32,617 nucleotides of DNA from Rikenellaceae bacterium (lineage in GTDB: Bacteria > Bacteroidota > Bacteroidia > Bacteroidales > Rikenellaceae), in NCBI GenBank assembly GCA_029068395.1, contig JAIECQ010000123.1:1-32617 (forward strand), written 5' to 3'. Numbering within the stretch: position 1 is the stretch's first letter; every line of letters begins with the position of its first letter. The notes beneath the pieces are model-generated. The model searched no databases and was not told the DNA's origin. It was given only the letters and a program-made list of their open reading frames with translations. This document shows positions 15,225-27,504 of this stretch, one piece after another. Position numbers and translations under genes: made by a program.

Positions 15225-16046
15225 ATGCCAAGTTTGACAAGACACATAACCACAAGTGAAGTCACCCGTACCATAGAGGCGGCCGAAAGGTTGTCGCACG
15301 ACATGCTCACGTCAGGGTCTCTATTAGGCATGGTGCCTCTTATAGACCACACCACCCTGTCGGTAACCGACTCTCACGAGAGTGTGCGCGCCTTCACCGC
15401 CGACATGCTTGCAAGGTGCCGCAAGGCCGGCGTGATGCCCGCCTCGGTGTGCACATCACCCCTCTTTGTCGAGAGCGTGGGCATAGAGCTTGGCGACGAG
15501 CCTGTGGCCATATGCTCGGTGGCGGGAGGCTTCCCATCGGGTCAGACATACCCCGAGGTCAAGATGCTCGAATGCTCCATGGCCATGGAGAACGGCGCCG
15601 ACGAGATAGACATGATAATAGATTTGGGGGCGGTGCGCATGGGTCGCCATGACGAGGCTTCGAGCCAGGTGCGCATAATAAAGGAGGAGCTTGACGACGA
15701 TGTCACCCTCAAGGTTATCGTAGAGACAGCCTCTTTCGAGAGCCTCGACGAGATATACAACGCCTGTATGGTGGCGCTCGAAGGAGGAGCCGACTTCGTA
15801 AAAAGCTCCACCGGCAAGAACACTGGCGGAGCCACCTATGAGGCCGCCGTGGCCATGTGCCTGGCAGTCAAAGACTACCACGAGGCATCGGGACGCATGG
15901 CGGGAGTCAAGTTTGCCGGAGGCATATCGTCACCCGAAGATGCCATGCCCTACATTGCCATCGCACGCCTTATCTTGGGTGCCGACTACATCACCCCCGA
16001 GTTTTTCAGAATAGGCTCAAGCTCTCTACTGAACAAGCTGGTATAA
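15225..16046 (+). CDS. deoC: Deoxyribose-phosphate aldolase
   Basis: A cytosolic class I aldolase splitting 2-deoxyribose 5-phosphate into acetaldehyde and glyceraldehyde 3-phosphate in deoxynucleoside catabolism. The 273-aa protein has the Schiff-base lysine in ADFVKSSTGK (Lys about 193), the helper lysine in VKFAGGIS (Lys about 229), the EID acid (Asp about 129) and PSGQTYPEVK. It carries an N-terminal extension relative to short bacterial forms, as in other Bacteroidetes enzymes. Ile codons are strongly ATA-biased (13 of 18), typical of this half of the window and unlike the genes beyond 17.6 kb. It stands alone with its own terminator. Confidence 0.96.
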   Translation: MPSLTRHITTSEVTRTIEAAERLSHDMLTSGSLLGMVPLIDHTTLSVTDSHESVRAFTADMLARCRKAGVMPASVCTSPLFVESVGIELGDEPVAICSVAGGFPSGQTYPEVKMLECSMAMENGADEIDMIIDLGAVRMGRHDEASSQVRIIKEELDDDVTLKVIVETASFESLDEIYNACMVALEGGADFVKSSTGKNTGGATYEAAVAMCLAVKDYHEASGRMAGVKFAGGISSPEDAMPYIAIARLILGADYITPEFFRIGSSSLLNKLV

Positions 16047-16156
16047 GTGCCTTTTATTCTGCCCTTATTTTGCTGGCACTGCCTCCGGCGGCCCTTCCGG
16101 GGGAGGGGTCGCGGACCCCGTTTTGATATTTTTGAGGGCAAACTAAGCGGATAAGT

Positions 16157-16221
16157 ACGAAAAAGAGGAGTAAAGGTGTTTCGACTTGGGTCTCACACCT
16201 TTACCCCTCTTTTTCGTTTTT
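16157..16221. terminator. Long bidirectional terminator hairpin after deoC
   Basis: A 23-bp stem with one mismatch, ACGAAAAAGAGG... against ...CCTCTTTTTCGT, with a 15-nt loop and a TTTT tail on the plus strand. It is about 110 bp after the deoC stop. Confidence 0.8.
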
Positions 16222-17379
16222 GCCCCTTGGACTGAGTGCCTGGAAGATATTCAACATGGGCCATGACTCTCAACGGAAAAACGTGGAAGCAAAACAGAAA
16301 CAATAACAGCAGAGCGGCAACCATAAAGGCAGCGTGGCAGCCACAGGCGTGACGGAGAGCGGCGCGGAGCCTGCGGAGGGCACAGCAAGAAAATGATGAG
16401 CATCACTGCCGTGACTAATTCACCGCCCTACATATTATTCACCGATTTGCGGCCCTCCGTTGGGCGGAGGCTCCGGGCCGCTCGGGACTCGTTGCCTCGT
16501 CCCGGTCATAAGGAATTCTTGCTTACGGCATACTTCGTAATGCCGGGCATAAGGAATAGTGTGCGGTTTCGTTACACTCAGACCGCGGTGCCGGGTTTCC
16601 TGCCGGAGCGGGGTGGGCCGGCACCAGCGCCGACCTCAGCGGAGAGGATTTCAAGAGTGTGGTGAGATTCGTCCGTGAGGTTTGAAACAGGCGGGACGCT
16701 TTAGCTGTTGCTTTTGTCAAGGTTTTGTTGCTTGTGGTTTGGCTTTGTGCCTGTGCTGGCGGGGCGGCTGTTTTGGCTGCGCACCTAACGCCCCTTTTAG
16801 CGTGAAGGAGCCACGGGCCGAGCCTGCGGGGGGCAAAGCGTGAAAGTGACGCACATAACCGCCGTGACTTAGTCTCTGCCTACAATTGCGTGGCGGGATT
16901 ACGGGCCTCCGCGGGGGGAGGCGAGGCCCGTTGCGGCTCGTACCTCGCCGCCCTGCCGGCGCGGAATGGGGCGTGATGAAATTCGGCCGTGAGGCGTGAA
17001 ACAGGCGGGGCGTTTTGGCTGTATTTCGGCAAGGCTTTGTAGCTTTTGGCAATGCTTTGCAACTTGCGGTTTGGCTTTATGCCTGTGATGGCGGGGCGGC
17101 TGCTCGGGCTGCGCACTTAACCCCCCTTTAGCATGAAGGAGTCACGGGCCGAGCCTGCGGAGGCAAGCATGAAAGTGACGCGCATCACCGTCGCCCCTTA
17201 GTCACTGCCTACAATTACGTGACAGGATTACGGGCCTCCGCGGGGGGAGGGTCGGCCCGTTGCGGCTCGTGCCTCGCCGCCCTGCCGGTGCGGAAAGCCA
17301 TGCGGTGCAAATCTTCCCGAAACAAAAAACACCTAACCTCGAAACCCTACCGCCCAACCAATAACACTTCTCTTATTCC
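16222..17379. other. Gene-free GC-rich block of degenerate repeats
   Basis: About 1.15 kb without a credible gene. The ORFs here on both strands are low-complexity, rich in Arg, Ala and Pro, and show no family signature. Most of the block consists of diverged repeat units described separately. Confidence 0.65.
16300..17300. repeat. About 2.5 copies of a degenerate tandem repeat (period about 331 bp)
   Basis: GAGCCTGCGG recurs at 16367, 16820 and 17151, and GTTTGGCTTT at 16737 and 17069. GAAACAGGCGG recurs at 16684 and 16998. The last two units share long blocks such as GGATTACGGGCCTCCGCGG and CTCGCCGCCCTGCCGG. The first unit is more diverged and about 120 bp longer. Each unit keeps a hairpin at the same place (16450-16480, 16902-16930, 17231-17259). 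Confidence 0.75.
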
Positions 17380-17574
17380 GTGAAGTTTCCCGCTGTCGGT
17401 TACCGCTACTACTCGTCCGGTTCGTTGAACCTCGCGGGTACGCGCGGGGACTATTGGCCGTCAGTTGCGAGCAGTTCTGGCAACGCGTACTACCTGTACT
17501 TCGTTAGCGGTAGTTTGAATGTGACCAATGGCTACGGTAAGCAGCGCGGTTTTAGCGTGCGTTGTGTCCGCTAA
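17380..17574 (+). pseudogene. C-terminal fragment of a FISUMP/DUF1566-like (C-type-lectin-like) protein
   Basis: This 64-aa frame opens only with GTG and has an in-frame TAA at 17362, so it is a truncated remnant. The sequence runs FPAVGYRYYSSGSLN..., GDYWPSVASS, NAYYLYF and ends GFSVRCVR followed by the stop. That is the typical C-terminus of FISUMP/DUF1566-like proteins, a group that includes targets of diversity-generating retroelements in Bacteroidetes. Positions that are often Asn (AAY) in templates are here Ser, Gly, Tyr, Thr or Arg, as expected of a mutagenised variable region. No reverse transcriptase, accessory gene or template repeat is visible in the window. It could be an abandoned variable-region copy or simply a decayed surface-protein gene. 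Confidence 0.6.
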
Positions 17575-17633
17575 ATATTAATATTTCAGGTAGAATATCT
17601 TGTTCGGACACACAGTGTTTCTTGAATTTTCCG

Positions 17634-20894: not shown

Positions 20895-21728
20895 TTATTC
20901 TGACAGAGATTTCCGGTATTGGGCGGGAGACATGCCTGTGTGTCGGCGGAATACTTTGCATAAATGCGAGGAATCTTCGTAATGGAGTCTGTCAGCAATG
21001 TTCTTGATAGAAAGAGTGGTACTTTTAAGGAGAGCTTTCATTGCCAAAACCAGTTTTTCATCTATGATTTCTTTCGGAGTCTTTCCCATACATTCCTTCA
21101 TCAGTACAGAAAGATAGTCCGAGGTGATACTCAGAGACTCGGCATAAAACGAAACATTATGTCGGGTCATGTAATGGCGTGATAAAAGGGCTAAGAAATC
21201 ACCCAGTAATTTCCATTGGGAACTATACCCTATTACCGCAACATCTTCTTCATTTTTATTTACGACATCTTCCATCACCATGAATAAAGACAGGACAGCA
21301 TTGGCGATTATGGAGTCAGATGTCTGCTTGCAGCAATTTTTGTCGACCCAAATGCACTGTCGCATCCAATGGTCGAATGGCTCTTTGTACAGGTCTTTAT
21401 CTATTTTCAGGACAGGACTCAGATAAAGCTTACTCCATAATTTCTGCGATGTGATTCTTACATATAGCTCGAACACCCTTTCATTGGTAATCGACACATA
21501 TCTGACTGTGAAATCATCGCTCCGCTCACCGAGTTCTATGACCATGTCTTTGAACAGAAATACGACGTCTCCCGGACAGATTTCATATCGTTTGAAATCG
21601 AGAATAAACGATGCGTTCCCGTTCAGACACTGCAATATCATGCAACCTTCGATAAGAAAGGGTGTTCCTGAAGTAAAACAGGGCAGGTATTCGCCCGACG
21701 AGATCGTTTTTTGATTGATCAGTTTCAT
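20895..21728 (-). CDS. AraC-family transcriptional regulator
   Basis: A 277-aa cytosolic activator or repressor. The N-terminal half (to about residue 150) is a cupin-like sensor (KRYEICPGDVVFLFKDMVIEL). The C-terminal 100 residues hold the two-helix-turn-helix AraC domain, with SLSITSDYLSVLMKECMGKTPKEIIDEKL and LSIKNIADRLHYEDSSHLCKVFRRHTGMSPAQYRK. The ORF track starts 13 codons earlier; ATG 21728 (MKLINQ) is preferred. It is divergent from the RND operon across 142 bp containing repeated ATACCGyAA motifs, so it most likely controls that pump. Confidence 0.93.
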   Translation of the reverse strand: MKLINQKTISSGEYLPCFTSGTPFLIEGCMILQCLNGNASFILDFKRYEICPGDVVFLFKDMVIELGERSDDFTVRYVSITNERVFELYVRITSQKLWSKLYLSPVLKIDKDLYKEPFDHWMRQCIWVDKNCCKQTSDSIIANAVLSLFMVMEDVVNKNEEDVAVIGYSSQWKLLGDFLALLSRHYMTRHNVSFYAESLSITSDYLSVLMKECMGKTPKEIIDEKLVLAMKALLKSTTLSIKNIADRLHYEDSSHLCKVFRRHTGMSPAQYRKSLSE

Positions 21729-21731
21729 AAT

Positions 21732-21814
21732 ATACCGCAAAAATAGCCGTAAAACTCCATACTTCAAAGCTGCATATCGGAAATATACCGTAACCGCCGG
21801 AATTCATACCGCAA
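21732..21814. promoter_or_regulatory. Repeated ATACCGyAA motifs, probable AraC-type binding sites
   Basis: ATACCGCAA (21732-21740), ATACCGTAA (21785-21793) and ATACCGCAA (21806-21814) lie in the same orientation, with a weaker ATAGCCGTAA at 21743. The last two strong copies are 21 bp apart, two helical turns, as is common for AraC half-sites. Confidence 0.55.
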
Positions 21815-21833
21815 TCGTTCGGAAGAATCGAGC

Positions 21834-21841
21834 TAAATTTG
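21834..21841 (+). promoter_or_regulatory. Candidate -7 element for the RND operon
   Basis: TAAATTTG lies 29 nt upstream of ATG 21871. No TTG at -33, consistent with an activator-dependent promoter next to the ATACCGyAA repeats. Confidence 0.5.
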
Positions 21842-21870
21842 GCCCGATTTTGAAACAATATTATCACATC

Positions 21871-22983
21871 ATGAATAAACATCATTTTCTATTATCGCTG
21901 ACCGTCTGCTCTGTCATTTTTTCGGGCTGCCGGCAGCAAACCACACAAGAAGAAATACGGGAAGTGCCGGTAATAAGAATTGCCGTCTCCGACTCCGTTT
22001 CGCTGAACGAGCGATTCAGTGCCACCATCGAGGGGCGGCAGGATGTTGAAATCTATCCGCAATTATCAGGCAAACTGACCCGTATCTGCGTAAAGGAAGG
22101 TCAGGATGTAGATGCCGGACAACTTCTGTTTGTAATCGATCAGATGCCATATCAGGCTGCCCTGCGGATGGCCACCGCAAATGTTCATGCCGCAGAAAGT
22201 CAGGTAGCCACAGCCCGGCTCGAACGTGACAGCAAACAGGCTCTGTTCGACGGGGCAGTGATTTCCGAGTATGAATTGCAGACCGCGAAAAACGCCCTTG
22301 CGGTTGCCGAGTCTTCTTTGGAGCAAGCCAAGGCCGCAGAGGTCGATGCCCGCAACAATCTGTCATATACGGAAATCAAAAGTCCTGTGAAAGGTGTGAT
22401 AGGCACGCTGCCGTATCGTGTCGGTGCATTGGTCTCACCTCAGATTGCACAGCCTCTTACATCCGTTAGCGATAACGCCGAGATGTGGGTCTATTTCTCG
22501 ATTTCCGAAAAACAGCTGCAAGGTCTGATGAGGCAGCACGGCTCCAAAAATGCGGCTTTGGCGGCCTTTCCTCCCGTCTCGCTGACCCTCAGCGACGGAC
22601 ATGAGTATCCGCAAATCGGACGTGTGGAGACAATCAGCGGAATGGTGAGTCCTCAGACCGGCGCAGTACAGATAAAATGCGTGTTCCCCAATTCGGAACG
22701 TCTGCTGTTCAGCGGAAGCACGGGCAATGTCGTCATGCCGCACACGGAAAGAAATGTCATGGTAATCCCCAAGAACGCCACCTACGAGATTCAGGATAAA
22801 ATCTATGTCTATAAAGTTGTCGGCGGGAAGGCGGAGTCTGTCGAAATAGCAGTCGCTCCTATGAATGACGGTAACAACTATATGGTACGCTCCGGACTCA
22901 GCAGCGGTGACGTAATCGTGACCGAAGGTGTCGGTTCGCTGCGCGACGGACAGGAAATCAAAATCAGGGAGGGGAAAAGATGA
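21871..22983 (+). CDS. RND efflux periplasmic adaptor (membrane fusion lipoprotein)
   Basis: A 370-aa adaptor linking the inner-membrane pump to the outer-membrane channel. A lipoprotein signal ends at IFSGC (Cys about 20). A biotinyl-lipoyl half follows (IYPQLSGKLTRICVKEGQDVDAGQLLFVID), then an alpha-helical hairpin (about 95-160) with alternating Ala/Glu, the second lipoyl half (DARNNLSYTEIKSPVKGVIG), and the beta-barrel and membrane-proximal domains to the end. I start it at ATG 21871; the ORF-track start 52 codons earlier crosses the promoter. Its TGA overlaps the permease ATG (ATGA), so the two are coupled. The AcrA/MexA-type family is clear; drugs exported are not predictable. Confidence 0.95.
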   Translation: MNKHHFLLSLTVCSVIFSGCRQQTTQEEIREVPVIRIAVSDSVSLNERFSATIEGRQDVEIYPQLSGKLTRICVKEGQDVDAGQLLFVIDQMPYQAALRMATANVHAAESQVATARLERDSKQALFDGAVISEYELQTAKNALAVAESSLEQAKAAEVDARNNLSYTEIKSPVKGVIGTLPYRVGALVSPQIAQPLTSVSDNAEMWVYFSISEKQLQGLMRQHGSKNAALAAFPPVSLTLSDGHEYPQIGRVETISGMVSPQTGAVQIKCVFPNSERLLFSGSTGNVVMPHTERNVMVIPKNATYEIQDKIYVYKVVGGKAESVEIAVAPMNDGNNYMVRSGLSSGDVIVTEGVGSLRDGQEIKIREGKR

Positions 22984-25900
22984 ATCTGAAATTCTTTATC
23001 GACCGGCCGATACTGTCTATCGTCCTATCGGTCTCTATCGTATTGCTCGGCATTGTGGGACTTGCTACTTTGCCGGTGGAACAGTATCCCGACATCGCTC
23101 CGCCCACCGTAAACGTATGGGCAAGCTATCCGGGTGCAAACTCGGAAACAGTGCAAAAGAGCGTAGTCATACCTTTGGAAGAAGCCATCAACGGTGTTGA
23201 GGGCATGACATACATAACTTCCGAAGCCTCCAACGACGGCAACGCATCGCTGATGATATATTTCCGTCAGGGAACGGATCCCGATATGGCGGCTGTGAAC
23301 GTACAGAACCGTGTGGCGACAGCCCAGAGTCTTCTGCCTGCCGAGGTGGTGCGGATAGGCATTACCACCGAAAAACAACAGAACGCCGAGCTGAAGACTT
23401 TTGCGCTCTACGATCCCGAAGGCCGCTACAGCAAGCAGTTCCTCAATAATTATATCAAAATCAACGTCGAGCCACGTATCAAGCGAGTGCAGGGAGTCGG
23501 CAAGGTACAGCTGTTCGGCTCTCCATACAGTATGCGCTTGTGGCTGAAACCCGACCGTATGGCGCAATATCGCCTTATTCCGGACGACATCGCCGCTTTG
23601 CTTGCCGGACAGAATATCGAGGCTGCGACAGGCTCCTTCGGAGAGAACCACGACAACGCCAACGTCTATACGATGAAGTATCGCGGACGCTTTACGACAG
23701 CGGAACAGTTCGGCGACATCGTAGTAAAATCTCTCCCCAACGGGGATATCCTCCGTCTGAAAGATGTGGCCGGCATTGAACTCGGCGACGAGGACTACAA
23801 CTTTGAGAATACCATCAACGGAAAGCCGGCGTCGATGCTTACGATCTACCAGACGGCAGGCTCGAATGCCTCGGCTGTTATCAACGAGATTGACCGTGTA
23901 CTCGACGAATGTGCGAAAGATCTCCCCAAAGGTCTGGAGTTTGTGACGATGAGCGATACTAATCGTTTCCTCTATGCTTCTATTCATGAGGTGGTGTGGG
24001 CTTTGATAGTCTCCATACTGCTGGTGGTGCTGGTGGTGTATTTCTTCCTGCAAGATTTCAAAGCTACCCTGATTCCGACTGTTGCGATATTCGTGTCGAT
24101 CATCGGCACATTCGGCTTCATGGCCGTTGCCGGATTCTCCATCAACCTGCTTACACTGTTCGCGCTTGTGCTCGCAATCGGTACGGTGGTCGATAATGCC
24201 ATTATTGTCGTAGAAGCGGTGCAGTCCAAATTCGATGCAGGTTACAAGTCGACATACATGGCGACAAATGACGCCATGAACGGCATAACCTCGGCGATAG
24301 TGGTTTCCACCATCATTTTTATGGCGGTGTTTATCCCTACTTCCATGATGGGCGGCACGTCGGGCACGTTCTACAAGCAGTTCGGCATCACGATGGCCGT
24401 GGCAGTCGGTCTGTCGGCATTGAACGCTCTCACACTTTCGCCTGCCTTATGTGCGATGATGATGCGTCCTGCCGATGGCGACAAAGGCTTTTCCGCTCGT
24501 GTCCGCAAGGCTTACAACGCCGCATTCAATGCCATGCTTGAGCGTTATAAGAACGGTGTTCTTTTCTTCGTGCGCCGTCCGGCAGTATCCTTTGTCGTGC
24601 TTTTCGTCGGTATCGGTCTGCTGGGATGGTTTATGCGCATCACACCTTCCGGTTTTGTACCCGACGAAGATACGGGAACCGTAATGGTATCACTTAAAAC
24701 AAAACCCGGAACATCATCAAAAAAGACTATGCAGGTCATACGGGATTTTGACAAAAAAATTGCCGAAATCGCCGGAGTAGACTACCGCGGTGCTGTCGTA
24801 GGATATTCATTCTCCGGCACAGGTCCGACTGCCGGTGTGTTCTTCCTTTCGCTGAAACACTGGGACGAACGCAAATCGCCGTTGGAAAGTGCCGATGCGA
24901 TATCGGGTCGGATTTATGCTCTCGCCGATTCCGTGCCGGATGCCAATTTCTTCGTGGCGACGCCGCCGATGATTCCCGGCTATGGTATGAGCAACGGATT
25001 CGACCTATACCTTCAGGACAAAGCAGGCGGCGATCTCAACGAGTTCAAAAAAGTGGCGGAAGAGTATGTGGCGGAACTTAACCGCCGTCCGGAAATCGAA
25101 ATGGCATATTCGGCCTTTGATACCCGGTATCCCCAATATTGGGTTGACATCGACGCTGCGCAGTGTGAGCGTGTCGGGGTGACTCCGGCTCAGGTACTTT
25201 CCACCATGTCGGGATATTTCGGCGGCAACTATGCCTCTAATTTCAACCGGTTCAACAAGCTGTACCGCGTGATGCTTCAGGCAGACCCGTCGACCCGTGT
25301 GACGCCGGAATCCATCCGAAATTTCTATATCCGTACCGGAAACGGCGAAATGGCCCCGCTGTCTCAGTTCGTCACCCTCACCAAGACCTACGGTCCCCAG
25401 TCCATTTCACGCTTCAACCTCTATAATTCCATAGCAGTGAACGGCAGCGCCGCACCCGGATACAGCTCAGGCGACGCACTGAAAGCCATTGCCGAGACTG
25501 CCGAAAAAGTGCTCCCCCGCAACTATGGCTACGAGCTTGGAGGCATAAGCCGCGAGGAGGCATCGACCGGAAACAATGCGATGATCATCTTTGCACTGTG
25601 TGCCATACTCGTATTTCTTATCCTCGCCGGACTTTATGAAAGCCTGCTGTTGCCGCTGGTCGTGATTATCTCGATACCTTGCGGACTGATGGGCAGCTTC
25701 CTCTTTGCCAAACTTTTCGCACTTGAGAACAACATCTATCTTCAGACGGGACTCATCATGCTTATCGGCCTGCTCGCAAAGACGGCAATCCTCATCACCG
25801 AGTATGCGGGCAAACGGCGCAAAAGCGGTATGACGCTCAAACAGGCTGCCGTAGGAGCGGCAAAAGCCCGTCTGCGTCCTATCCTGATGACTGCGTTGAC

Positions 25901-26159
25901 AATGGTGTTCGGCATGTTGCCGCTGATGTTTGCCTCGGGCGTGGGTGCGAACGGCAACTCCACGCTCGGCACAGGTGCCGTAGGAGGTATGATTATCGGC
26001 ACACTGACCCTATTGTTCCTGGTGCCGGCCCTGTGGATGGTGTTCCAGAAGATTCAGGAGCGGTTCCGTCCGGTGGAAAAACAGAAGCCCGACTGGGCAA
26101 TGAGTGTCGAACTCGAAAGTGTAGCTAACCTGAAAAAGCAGAAAGAAGATGAAAAATAA
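22980..26159 (+). CDS. RND multidrug efflux permease (AcrB/HAE1 type)
   Basis: A proton-driven inner-membrane trimeric pump of 1059 aa, usual for HAE1 permeases. It starts with FIDRPILSIVLSVSIVLLG (TM1) and has the large periplasmic loop with YPDIAPPTVNV. TM4 is GTVVDNAIIVVEAV. The second half has FVPDEDTGTVMVSLKTKPGTS and the TM10 lysine in LLAKTAILITEYA. The AcrB Asp pair in TM4 is VDN here, so one Asp is replaced by Asn; this variant occurs in other Bacteroidetes RND pumps to my knowledge. It overlaps the adaptor by 4 nt and the channel gene by 11 nt, giving a complete tripartite operon. Confidence 0.97.
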   Translation: MNLKFFIDRPILSIVLSVSIVLLGIVGLATLPVEQYPDIAPPTVNVWASYPGANSETVQKSVVIPLEEAINGVEGMTYITSEASNDGNASLMIYFRQGTDPDMAAVNVQNRVATAQSLLPAEVVRIGITTEKQQNAELKTFALYDPEGRYSKQFLNNYIKINVEPRIKRVQGVGKVQLFGSPYSMRLWLKPDRMAQYRLIPDDIAALLAGQNIEAATGSFGENHDNANVYTMKYRGRFTTAEQFGDIVVKSLPNGDILRLKDVAGIELGDEDYNFENTINGKPASMLTIYQTAGSNASAVINEIDRVLDECAKDLPKGLEFVTMSDTNRFLYASIHEVVWALIVSILLVVLVVYFFLQDFKATLIPTVAIFVSIIGTFGFMAVAGFSINLLTLFALVLAIGTVVDNAIIVVEAVQSKFDAGYKSTYMATNDAMNGITSAIVVSTIIFMAVFIPTSMMGGTSGTFYKQFGITMAVAVGLSALNALTLSPALCAMMMRPADGDKGFSARVRKAYNAAFNAMLERYKNGVLFFVRRPAVSFVVLFVGIGLLGWFMRITPSGFVPDEDTGTVMVSLKTKPGTSSKKTMQVIRDFDKKIAEIAGVDYRGAVVGYSFSGTGPTAGVFFLSLKHWDERKSPLESADAISGRIYALADSVPDANFFVATPPMIPGYGMSNGFDLYLQDKAGGDLNEFKKVAEEYVAELNRRPEIEMAYSAFDTRYPQYWVDIDAAQCERVGVTPAQVLSTMSGYFGGNYASNFNRFNKLYRVMLQADPSTRVTPESIRNFYIRTGNGEMAPLSQFVTLTKTYGPQSISRFNLYNSIAVNGSAAPGYSSGDALKAIAETAEKVLPRNYGYELGGISREEASTGNNAMIIFALCAILVFLILAGLYESLLLPLVVIISIPCGLMGSFLFAKLFALENNIYLQTGLIMLIGLLAKTAILITEYAGKRRKSGMTLKQAAVGAAKARLRPILMTALTMVFGMLPLMFASGVGANGNSTLGTGAVGGMIIGTLTLLFLVPALWMVFQKIQERFRPVEKQKPDWAMSVELESVANLKKQKEDEK

Positions 26160-27504
26160 GATCATATTCACGGCTCTTGTAGCATTGCTGCTCGCATCCT
26201 GCGGAGTCTACCGCAAATATCAGCCGACGACCGAGGTAAGCACGGCCTTATACGGCAACGATATTATCGTGACAGATACGGCATCGCTCGCAACAATCGC
26301 ATGGCGTGAGTTTTTTACCGATCCGGCGTTGCAGAGGCTGATCGATTCGGCATTAGTCAAAAATACCGAATATCAGGTAGCCCGGCTGCGCACCGAACAG
26401 GCTCTCGCTTCGCTCGGAGCGGCAAAGCTGGCATATTTCCCGTCGCTCGACTTCGGTGCCGACGGCAACATTACACGTTATGACGGTCTGACAACCAAGA
26501 CATACAACATCGGTCTTAACGCTTCGTGGGAGGTTGATATCTTCGGCAAGCTGACTGCGGCAAAACGTGGAGCGGCTGCTGCGGCAGTATCGGCAGACGA
26601 ACAGGCGCAGGCAGTCCGAACCCAACTTGTCGCCACCGTCGCCACATCGTATTACTCTCTGCTGATGCTTGACCGGCAGATAGAGATTGCCGAAAACACG
26701 TTCGACAACTGGACGCAGACTATCCGCGTGATGGAGTTGCTGAAAACGGCAGGCAGGGCGAATGAGGCGGGCATTTTGCAGACCAAAGCCAACCGCACGG
26801 GGTTGCAGGCGGATATAGCCGCGATGAAAAAGAGCCGTAAGGAGATAGAAAATTCTCTTTGCGGACTGCTCGCCATAACCCCGCGTCCGATTGCAAGAAA
26901 CAAAATTGAAGATGCGGTATTCCCGGATGAGCTTTCAGTCGGACTGCCGGTGCAGCTTCTCGCCAACCGTCCCGATGTCAGGGCTGCGGAAACGGAGCTG
27001 GCAAGGACTCATTACGCACTCGGTGTGGCAAGAGCATCGTTCTATCCCTCGCTGACGCTTGGCGGCACGTTGGGTTTCACCAACAACGGCGGGATCGTGA
27101 TCAATCCCGGCCAATGGCTGCTCAACGCAGTCGGACAGCTCATGCAGCCGATATTCAACCGCGGTCAGCTTCGTGCCGGCTATAAGATAGCCGATGCCGA
27201 CAGGGAGATTGCGCTGTTGCAGTTCAACCAGTCGTTAATTGATGCCGGAACCGAGGTCAACAATGCTTTGACCGACATATCGGCAGCAAGAGAACGTCTC
27301 GTGCTTGTAAAGGAACAGTCGCAACTTCTTGCCGATGCCGTTGCGAAAACCGAACTGCTCATGCGTCATTCCACGACAAACTATCTCGAAGTCCTGACGG
27401 CACAGCAGGCACTGCTCGGCGCGCAGCAGAGCGAGGTACAATGCCGTTATGACGAGATAGCCGGAATAGTGTCGTTATATCATGCGCTTGGAGGTGGGAA
27501 ATAG
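26149..27504 (+). CDS. Outer-membrane efflux channel lipoprotein (TolC/OprM, NodT type)
   Basis: A 451-aa outer-membrane factor that completes the tripartite pump. The lipoprotein signal ends at LLASC (Cys about 18). Two repeated OEP domains follow. The first contains WREFFTDPALQRLIDSALVKNTEYQVARLRTEQA and SWEVDIFGKLTAAKRGA. The second contains LLANRPDVRAAETELARTHYALGVARASFYPSLTLGGTLG and AQQALLGAQQSEVQCRYDEI. The alternating helical and strand segments are typical. The start overlaps the permease's end by 11 nt, and its own end overlaps the MATE gene by 23 nt. Confidence 0.95.
   Translation: MKNKIIFTALVALLLASCGVYRKYQPTTEVSTALYGNDIIVTDTASLATIAWREFFTDPALQRLIDSALVKNTEYQVARLRTEQALASLGAAKLAYFPSLDFGADGNITRYDGLTTKTYNIGLNASWEVDIFGKLTAAKRGAAAAAVSADEQAQAVRTQLVATVATSYYSLLMLDRQIEIAENTFDNWTQTIRVMELLKTAGRANEAGILQTKANRTGLQADIAAMKKSRKEIENSLCGLLAITPRPIARNKIEDAVFPDELSVGLPVQLLANRPDVRAAETELARTHYALGVARASFYPSLTLGGTLGFTNNGGIVINPGQWLLNAVGQLMQPIFNRGQLRAGYKIADADREIALLQFNQSLIDAGTEVNNALTDISAARERLVLVKEQSQLLADAVAKTELLMRHSTTNYLEVLTAQQALLGAQQSEVQCRYDEIAGIVSLYHALGGGK

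Follow-up and report, generated by a model that had tools for sequence, protein, structure and literature searches.

The window analysed here, a stretch of 32,617 nucleotides from a Rikenellaceae draft genome, carries on its forward strand, at 17380-17574, a real open frame of 64 amino acids with the C-terminal end GFSVRCVR. The frame consists of a possible GTG start, the 63 codons of an orphan DGR variable repeat (VR; KFPAVGYRYYSS...GFSVRCVR, 17383-17571), recognized from matches in its own genome and from alignment to two template repeats, and a TAA stop; neither a signal peptide nor a preceding domain is present. An in-frame TAA within CCAATAACA (17362-17364), common to most orphan cassettes of the leader type, lies just 5' of the VR and six codons 5' of the GTG at 17380. 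The label of orphan variable region given to this fragment in the preliminary description was correct. The leader itself (AAACAAAAAACACCTAACC...CCGCCCAACCAATAACA..TTATTCCGTG, 17283-17382), defined by an alignment of 32 orphan upstream regions, occurs in about 45 copies; formally the window copy falls into the unique or ungrouped 5' class, its leader being one base short of the filter, and it is of the leader type by eye. Downstream, only a 12-bp remnant of the VR 3' flank, TAAATATTAATA (17572-17583), is found, and the remainder (CTTTGGTTCTTTGATTTCTTTGATTCTTCCCCGAGGG), present at most other copies, is missing. Taken alone, the fragment has Pfam/NCBIfam matches that stay below threshold, to the last part of Lcl_C and Fib_succ_major/FISUMP. 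Further 5', on the same strand, a dispersed, GC-rich intergenic repeat of about 300 bp that contains GGGCCTCCGCGGGG precedes the leader, as it does most cassettes (approximately 16991-17290), with a tandem second copy at approximately 16680-16970; 103 copies of this repeat were counted in 738 kb of fetched loci, 62 of them with a same-strand VR within 500 bp downstream. Elsewhere in the window, three consecutive frames (21715-27504) look by eye like a tripartite RND efflux operon with an adaptor, a 1059-aa pump and an outer-membrane factor, adjoined on the opposite strand by what appears, also by eye, to be an AraC-like regulator.

The preliminary description had remarked on the lack of a nearby reverse transcriptase (RT), which holds for the window, where none was found, but not for the genome as a whole. 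This genome (G000), a draft from the Rikenellaceae/Alistipes family (2.08 Mb in 202 contigs, 84% complete, 0.15% contamination), encodes a single DGR-type RT of 467 aa at positions 448-1851 of contig C108. It matches the PHROG RT at 1.2e-88 and RVT_1 over the cut-off, and the best-matching phage records are RTs, those of Bacteroides uniformis phages among them; Bordetella phage records were matched too. Judged by these matches, the enzyme belongs to the DGR group. Directly upstream, 37 bp before the RT start, lies a template repeat (C108:225-410), an AAC/AAT-rich copy of the fragment; a second template is found on C80 (15-203), and the end of a third at the start of C108 (1-20). The search for a template repeat and a DGR-type RT that had been proposed thus succeeded on both counts. 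After the C108 template comes CAAGAATTTACG, in place of the TAAATATT or CAATGATT of other copies. An Rfam search of the RT and template loci gave no match, and a search for bAvd, the accessory protein of the Avd type, matched nothing in G000 or in any control, the controls including no positive one.

The fragment matches its own genome at 149 places, far more than chance would give; a few of these are overlaps at contig ends, and as contigs often end inside VRs the true number may be lower or higher. The 126 matches with both conserved ends, which comprise the two templates and 124 full-length VRs, all have lengths that are multiples of three. The 124 VRs, many of them outside genes, correspond to roughly one per 17 kb, in an assembly whose fragmentation at the VR repeats makes the copy number and some joins uncertain. 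A family of about 125-150 copies is more than the reading of a single window could reveal. At codons identical in the C108 and C80 templates, 1482 of 3842 template adenines are changed (38.6%) versus 488 of 11779 other bases (4.1%), the latter rate being an upper bound since other templates are missing from the assembly. Between the VR at C114:2866 and the C108 template, 19 of 50 adenines and none of 136 other bases differ; in the alignment of VRs, 25 near-invariant codon columns adjoin columns with 11-15 residue types. The bias is the same in orphans (39.4% of adenines and 4.2% of other bases changed) and in longer copies (38.1% and 4.3%). In the window copy, 25-26 of 48-52 template adenines are changed, and at most of the fragment's Ser, Gly, Tyr and Thr positions the templates have AAC or AAT, just as had been predicted from the fragment alone. 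Assigning sister-species templates to every VR was also tried; as the templates of different species are not alike, this brought the non-adenine rate up to about 10%, and the figures from the genome's own templates are therefore those relied on. The absence of a template, of an RT and of a concentration of differences at adenines had each been named beforehand as a ground for giving up the reading; all three were tested and none holds. A hyper-expanded, multi-template DGR in this genome is well supported, and from the pattern of substitutions it is almost certain that the family is rewritten by it. A search for free landing pads with the 3' flank motif gave 126 hits; all of those listed are next to a VR or at the end of a contig, none of them being a free landing pad.

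Within this family, the window copy is probably a decaying member, because most of its 3' flank is lost while the leader is kept, and because it carries two unique non-adenine changes at near-invariant codons (GAG to AAG and TCG to CCG). With most of the 3' flank gone, it is likely to be inactive now and no longer rewritten. Copies without an intact 3' flank have 2.0 non-adenine departures versus 0.77 in the others (p = 0.003), some of the flanks scored as non-intact being merely cut by contig ends. Of the two fates suggested for the fragment in the preliminary description, relic or donor cassette, relic is the better one for the window copy, and donor is a live but unproven one for the family.

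The members of this family fall into two sets. About eight loci (C91, C133, C134, C129 with C22/C146, C114, C6, C10 and C140) encode long tandem-FISUMP proteins with 1-5 VRs each; the start is assembled at C91 and C134 only, and there, by eye, a lipoprotein-like signal is seen. Full modules match FISUMP/Lcl_C over the cut-off. An AlphaFold model (pLDDT 77) has the Lcl C-terminal domain as its best solved match (probability 0.99, E 0.08, over a short stretch), and a sequence search of solved structures with the module profile gave nothing at E 0.01. The other set consists of start-less cassettes, at least 80 in total, which have no ATG and no signal peptide: 50 orphan copies with 30 or fewer open codons ahead of the VR, and at least 30 further copies in which the upstream FISUMP part is open. 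They are 5'-truncated to a whole FISUMP domain, part of one or the VR alone, and have in common the VR 3' end and about 50 bp of 3' flank. By their 5' edges the copies can be classed as having the shared leader (47), FISUMP of the IKFTS type (32), FISUMP of the TLKTD type (26) or unique or ungrouped edges (19). The 5' class is tied to the type of 3' flank, TLKTD going with CAATG in 19/19 and leader or IKFTS with TAAAT in 73/75 of the typed copies. Folding of both flank types on both strands revealed no hairpin downstream of the VR better than those of shuffled sequences; this does not exclude a DGR, in which such hairpins have been proposed to be common but not universal (PMC3240598). A separate observation concerns C22 (L058) and C146 (L069), which share exactly 77 bp at both ends, both continue C129 and differ strongly in between. 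They form a k=77 assembly bubble and so represent alternative alleles or paralogues of one tandem-VR gene; since the two diverge by 10-30% or more along most of the sequence, paralogues stay in play beside the reading as two alleles.

Comparison with related genomes indicates that the orphans, too, are rewritten. At 11 positions shared between G000 and the sister genome G031, from which 42 VR/TR copies were recovered (nine of them templates), the syntenic flanks have a mean identity of 86% and the VRs of 70%, the value for random VR pairs being 72 +/- 4.6; several of these positions are orphans. Because the VRs at shared positions are no more alike than random pairs despite such flanks, orphan VRs have very probably been rewritten as well since the two species separated. 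The 5' module also differs at several of the 11 positions, which goes beyond what DGR rewriting alone would produce, as the templates do not cover this module. The sister genomes have 9-10 templates each. In G011, the RT is 70% identical and is preceded by an array of ten templates (L147, 3374-6788), two of which are adenine-poor, with only 4-6 AAN codons, as if templates themselves had been overwritten. In G080, which belongs to another genus and is 99% complete in about 20 contigs, 89 copies were found, more than ten arrayed beside the RT and the rest dispersed. Since G011 and G080 show the arrangement likewise, it does not stem from an artefact in a single draft.

Further observations from G031 concern individual loci. 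An orphan VR that follows deoC in this genome has one flank 76% identical to window positions 15673-16517, and its other flank matches a different G000 contig. At L202 (G031 C53:8507) and L211 (G031 C3:10649), one G031 VR has a left flank that matches one VR locus of G000 and a right flank that matches another, which indicates either rearrangement with breakpoints at VRs or misassembly across the repeats. Near-identical VRs (ERYVSSGTLY.AGESGLYW...LGAGLSGYKQYGR) occur at the non-syntenic loci L210 (G031 C64:10713) and L038 (G000 C104:3698) and suggest movement or exchange of a VR.

How might such a system work? Taken together, the data are probably best explained by one RT that rewrites more than 100 VRs, with the start-less cassettes possibly acting as silent donors. 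The RT, with several template repeats, almost certainly rewrites the dispersed VRs in trans, almost only at positions of template adenines; the 3' flank would mark a copy as a retrohoming target; and segments of the silent cassettes may occasionally be copied into the lipoprotein genes by homologous recombination. Whether the cassettes are in fact useful as donors for the lipoprotein loci is a finely balanced matter. The donor reading is plausible but unproven, and is backed, at the level of sequence comparison, by the open start-less frames, by 5' modules that differ at positions conserved between species, by exact blocks of 100-150 bp that lipoprotein modules and cassettes have in common just upstream of the VR, by one module in C146 that is of another domain type than its counterpart in C22, and by the dN/dS of the FISUMP parts, 0.12 in start-less cassettes (104 pairs) versus 0.14 in lipoprotein modules, a low value that may be inherited from the parent genes and that comes with high dS and few close pairs. 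A finished or recent transfer of a VR from a cassette to a lipoprotein locus was looked for among the VR pairs and none was seen: 3 of about 7,600 pairs share more diversified sequence than shuffles allow, and none of these joins a cassette to a lipoprotein locus. An ungapped gradient of identity upstream of the VR was also considered but was set aside, as indels confound it. Tentatively, we propose a system of two tiers, in which the RT and its template library would rewrite a silent reservoir, recombination would feed a few surface lipoproteins, and the repertoire would be stored unexposed.

The main rival of a donor role is debris kept uniform by the DGR. The orphans would then be the broken, scattered ends of genes, without function, whose likeness is kept up only because the DGR goes on overwriting every copy in which the VR and its 3' flank are still present. 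The equal adenine bias of orphans and longer copies fits well with this, as rewriting needs no benefit to the host, and so do the scarcity of traces of exchange between VRs, the larger number of non-adenine changes in copies whose 3' flank is damaged, the window copy among them, and some fifteen orphans that abut unrelated unique DNA at the VR edge. Debris would, however, hardly be expected to include start-less FISUMP cassettes with intact frames and low dN/dS outside the part covered by the templates, to couple its 5' class to its 3' flank type, or to recur as a pattern in sister species and another genus. We regard this explanation as possible but rather doubtful. A second alternative is translation of the cassettes into small proteins, from a non-ATG start or by read-through, so that each orphan would yield a diversified peptide. 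The maintained open frames, the GTG at the VR edge in leader-type orphans and the low dN/dS of the FISUMP parts are compatible with translation; but the cassettes have no ATG or signal peptide, whereas those FISUMP proteins whose start is assembled resemble lipoproteins. Most leader-type orphans, moreover, have a stop no more than about 6 codons away, and a VR of 64 aa makes up only the end of its domain. Translation therefore seems unlikely. That the count is inflated by assembly or binning, with copies of several strains collapsed in one draft, is very improbable: the 202 contigs often end inside VRs, some copies overlap at contig ends and C22/C146 form a k=77 bubble, but contamination of G000 is 0.15%, the far more contiguous G080 still has its 89 copies with more than ten beside the RT, and the same arrangement is seen in G011 and G031.

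The components found here, a DGR-type RT, an adjacent template, adenine-specific substitution, a VR forming the 3' end of a putative C-type-lectin-like domain and, immediately after the VR, a conserved element that is absent from the template, are those of the BPP-1 type of DGR. In BPP-1, homing needs sequence after the VR and requires a hairpin there (PMC3240598), whereas no hairpin was found in the 3' flank here; the system also differs in having several templates per RT (9-10 in the sister genomes) and more than 100 remote VRs, many without a gene. An early survey found at most four VRs near an RT (PMC3521204). Remote target genes are also served by a single RT or a few in the multi-target DGRs of Treponema denticola, which has lipoprotein targets, and Trichodesmium; but T. 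denticola ATCC35405 has seven targets (PMC4891356) and Trichodesmium 18 loci (PMC8867640), in contrast to the approximately 124 full VRs found here. Several template repeats, many VR calls and tandem VRs in one protein also characterize the "highly repetitive TR" cases of Yan et al. (2019), such as Pseudomonas costantinii with 6 TRs and 91 TR-VR pairs, which its authors called atypical, with few A-to-N substitutions and 21 merged VRs in one ORF (PMC6642488); here, in contrast, the adenine bias is strong and the copies are dispersed. The literature examined on the T. denticola and Trichodesmium DGRs does not describe start-less cassettes as the main class, and an incomplete literature search, which does not prove absence, found no description of this arrangement in Alistipes. 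In the silent-cassette antigenic variation of Borrelia vls and Neisseria pilS, a few surface-protein loci are accompanied by many start-less partial copies with a common 3' end. The present family resembles these systems in these features, and start-less partial copies homologous to expressed loci are present; unlike theirs, its cassettes lie scattered through the genome and are rewritten in their turn by an RT, and transfer into expression loci was not observed here.

In the literature examined, DGRs have between one and about twenty targets, apart from one clear exception, described as atypical by its authors. The family described here raises the question of what role a DGR plays at non-genic targets. 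In addition, it provides a natural setting for comparing one RT, many templates and many recognition sites side by side, and for asking which 3' sequences define targets. If the reading as a silent reservoir is true, targeted hypermutation and silent-cassette recombination, which are usually kept apart, would be joined in common gut bacteria.
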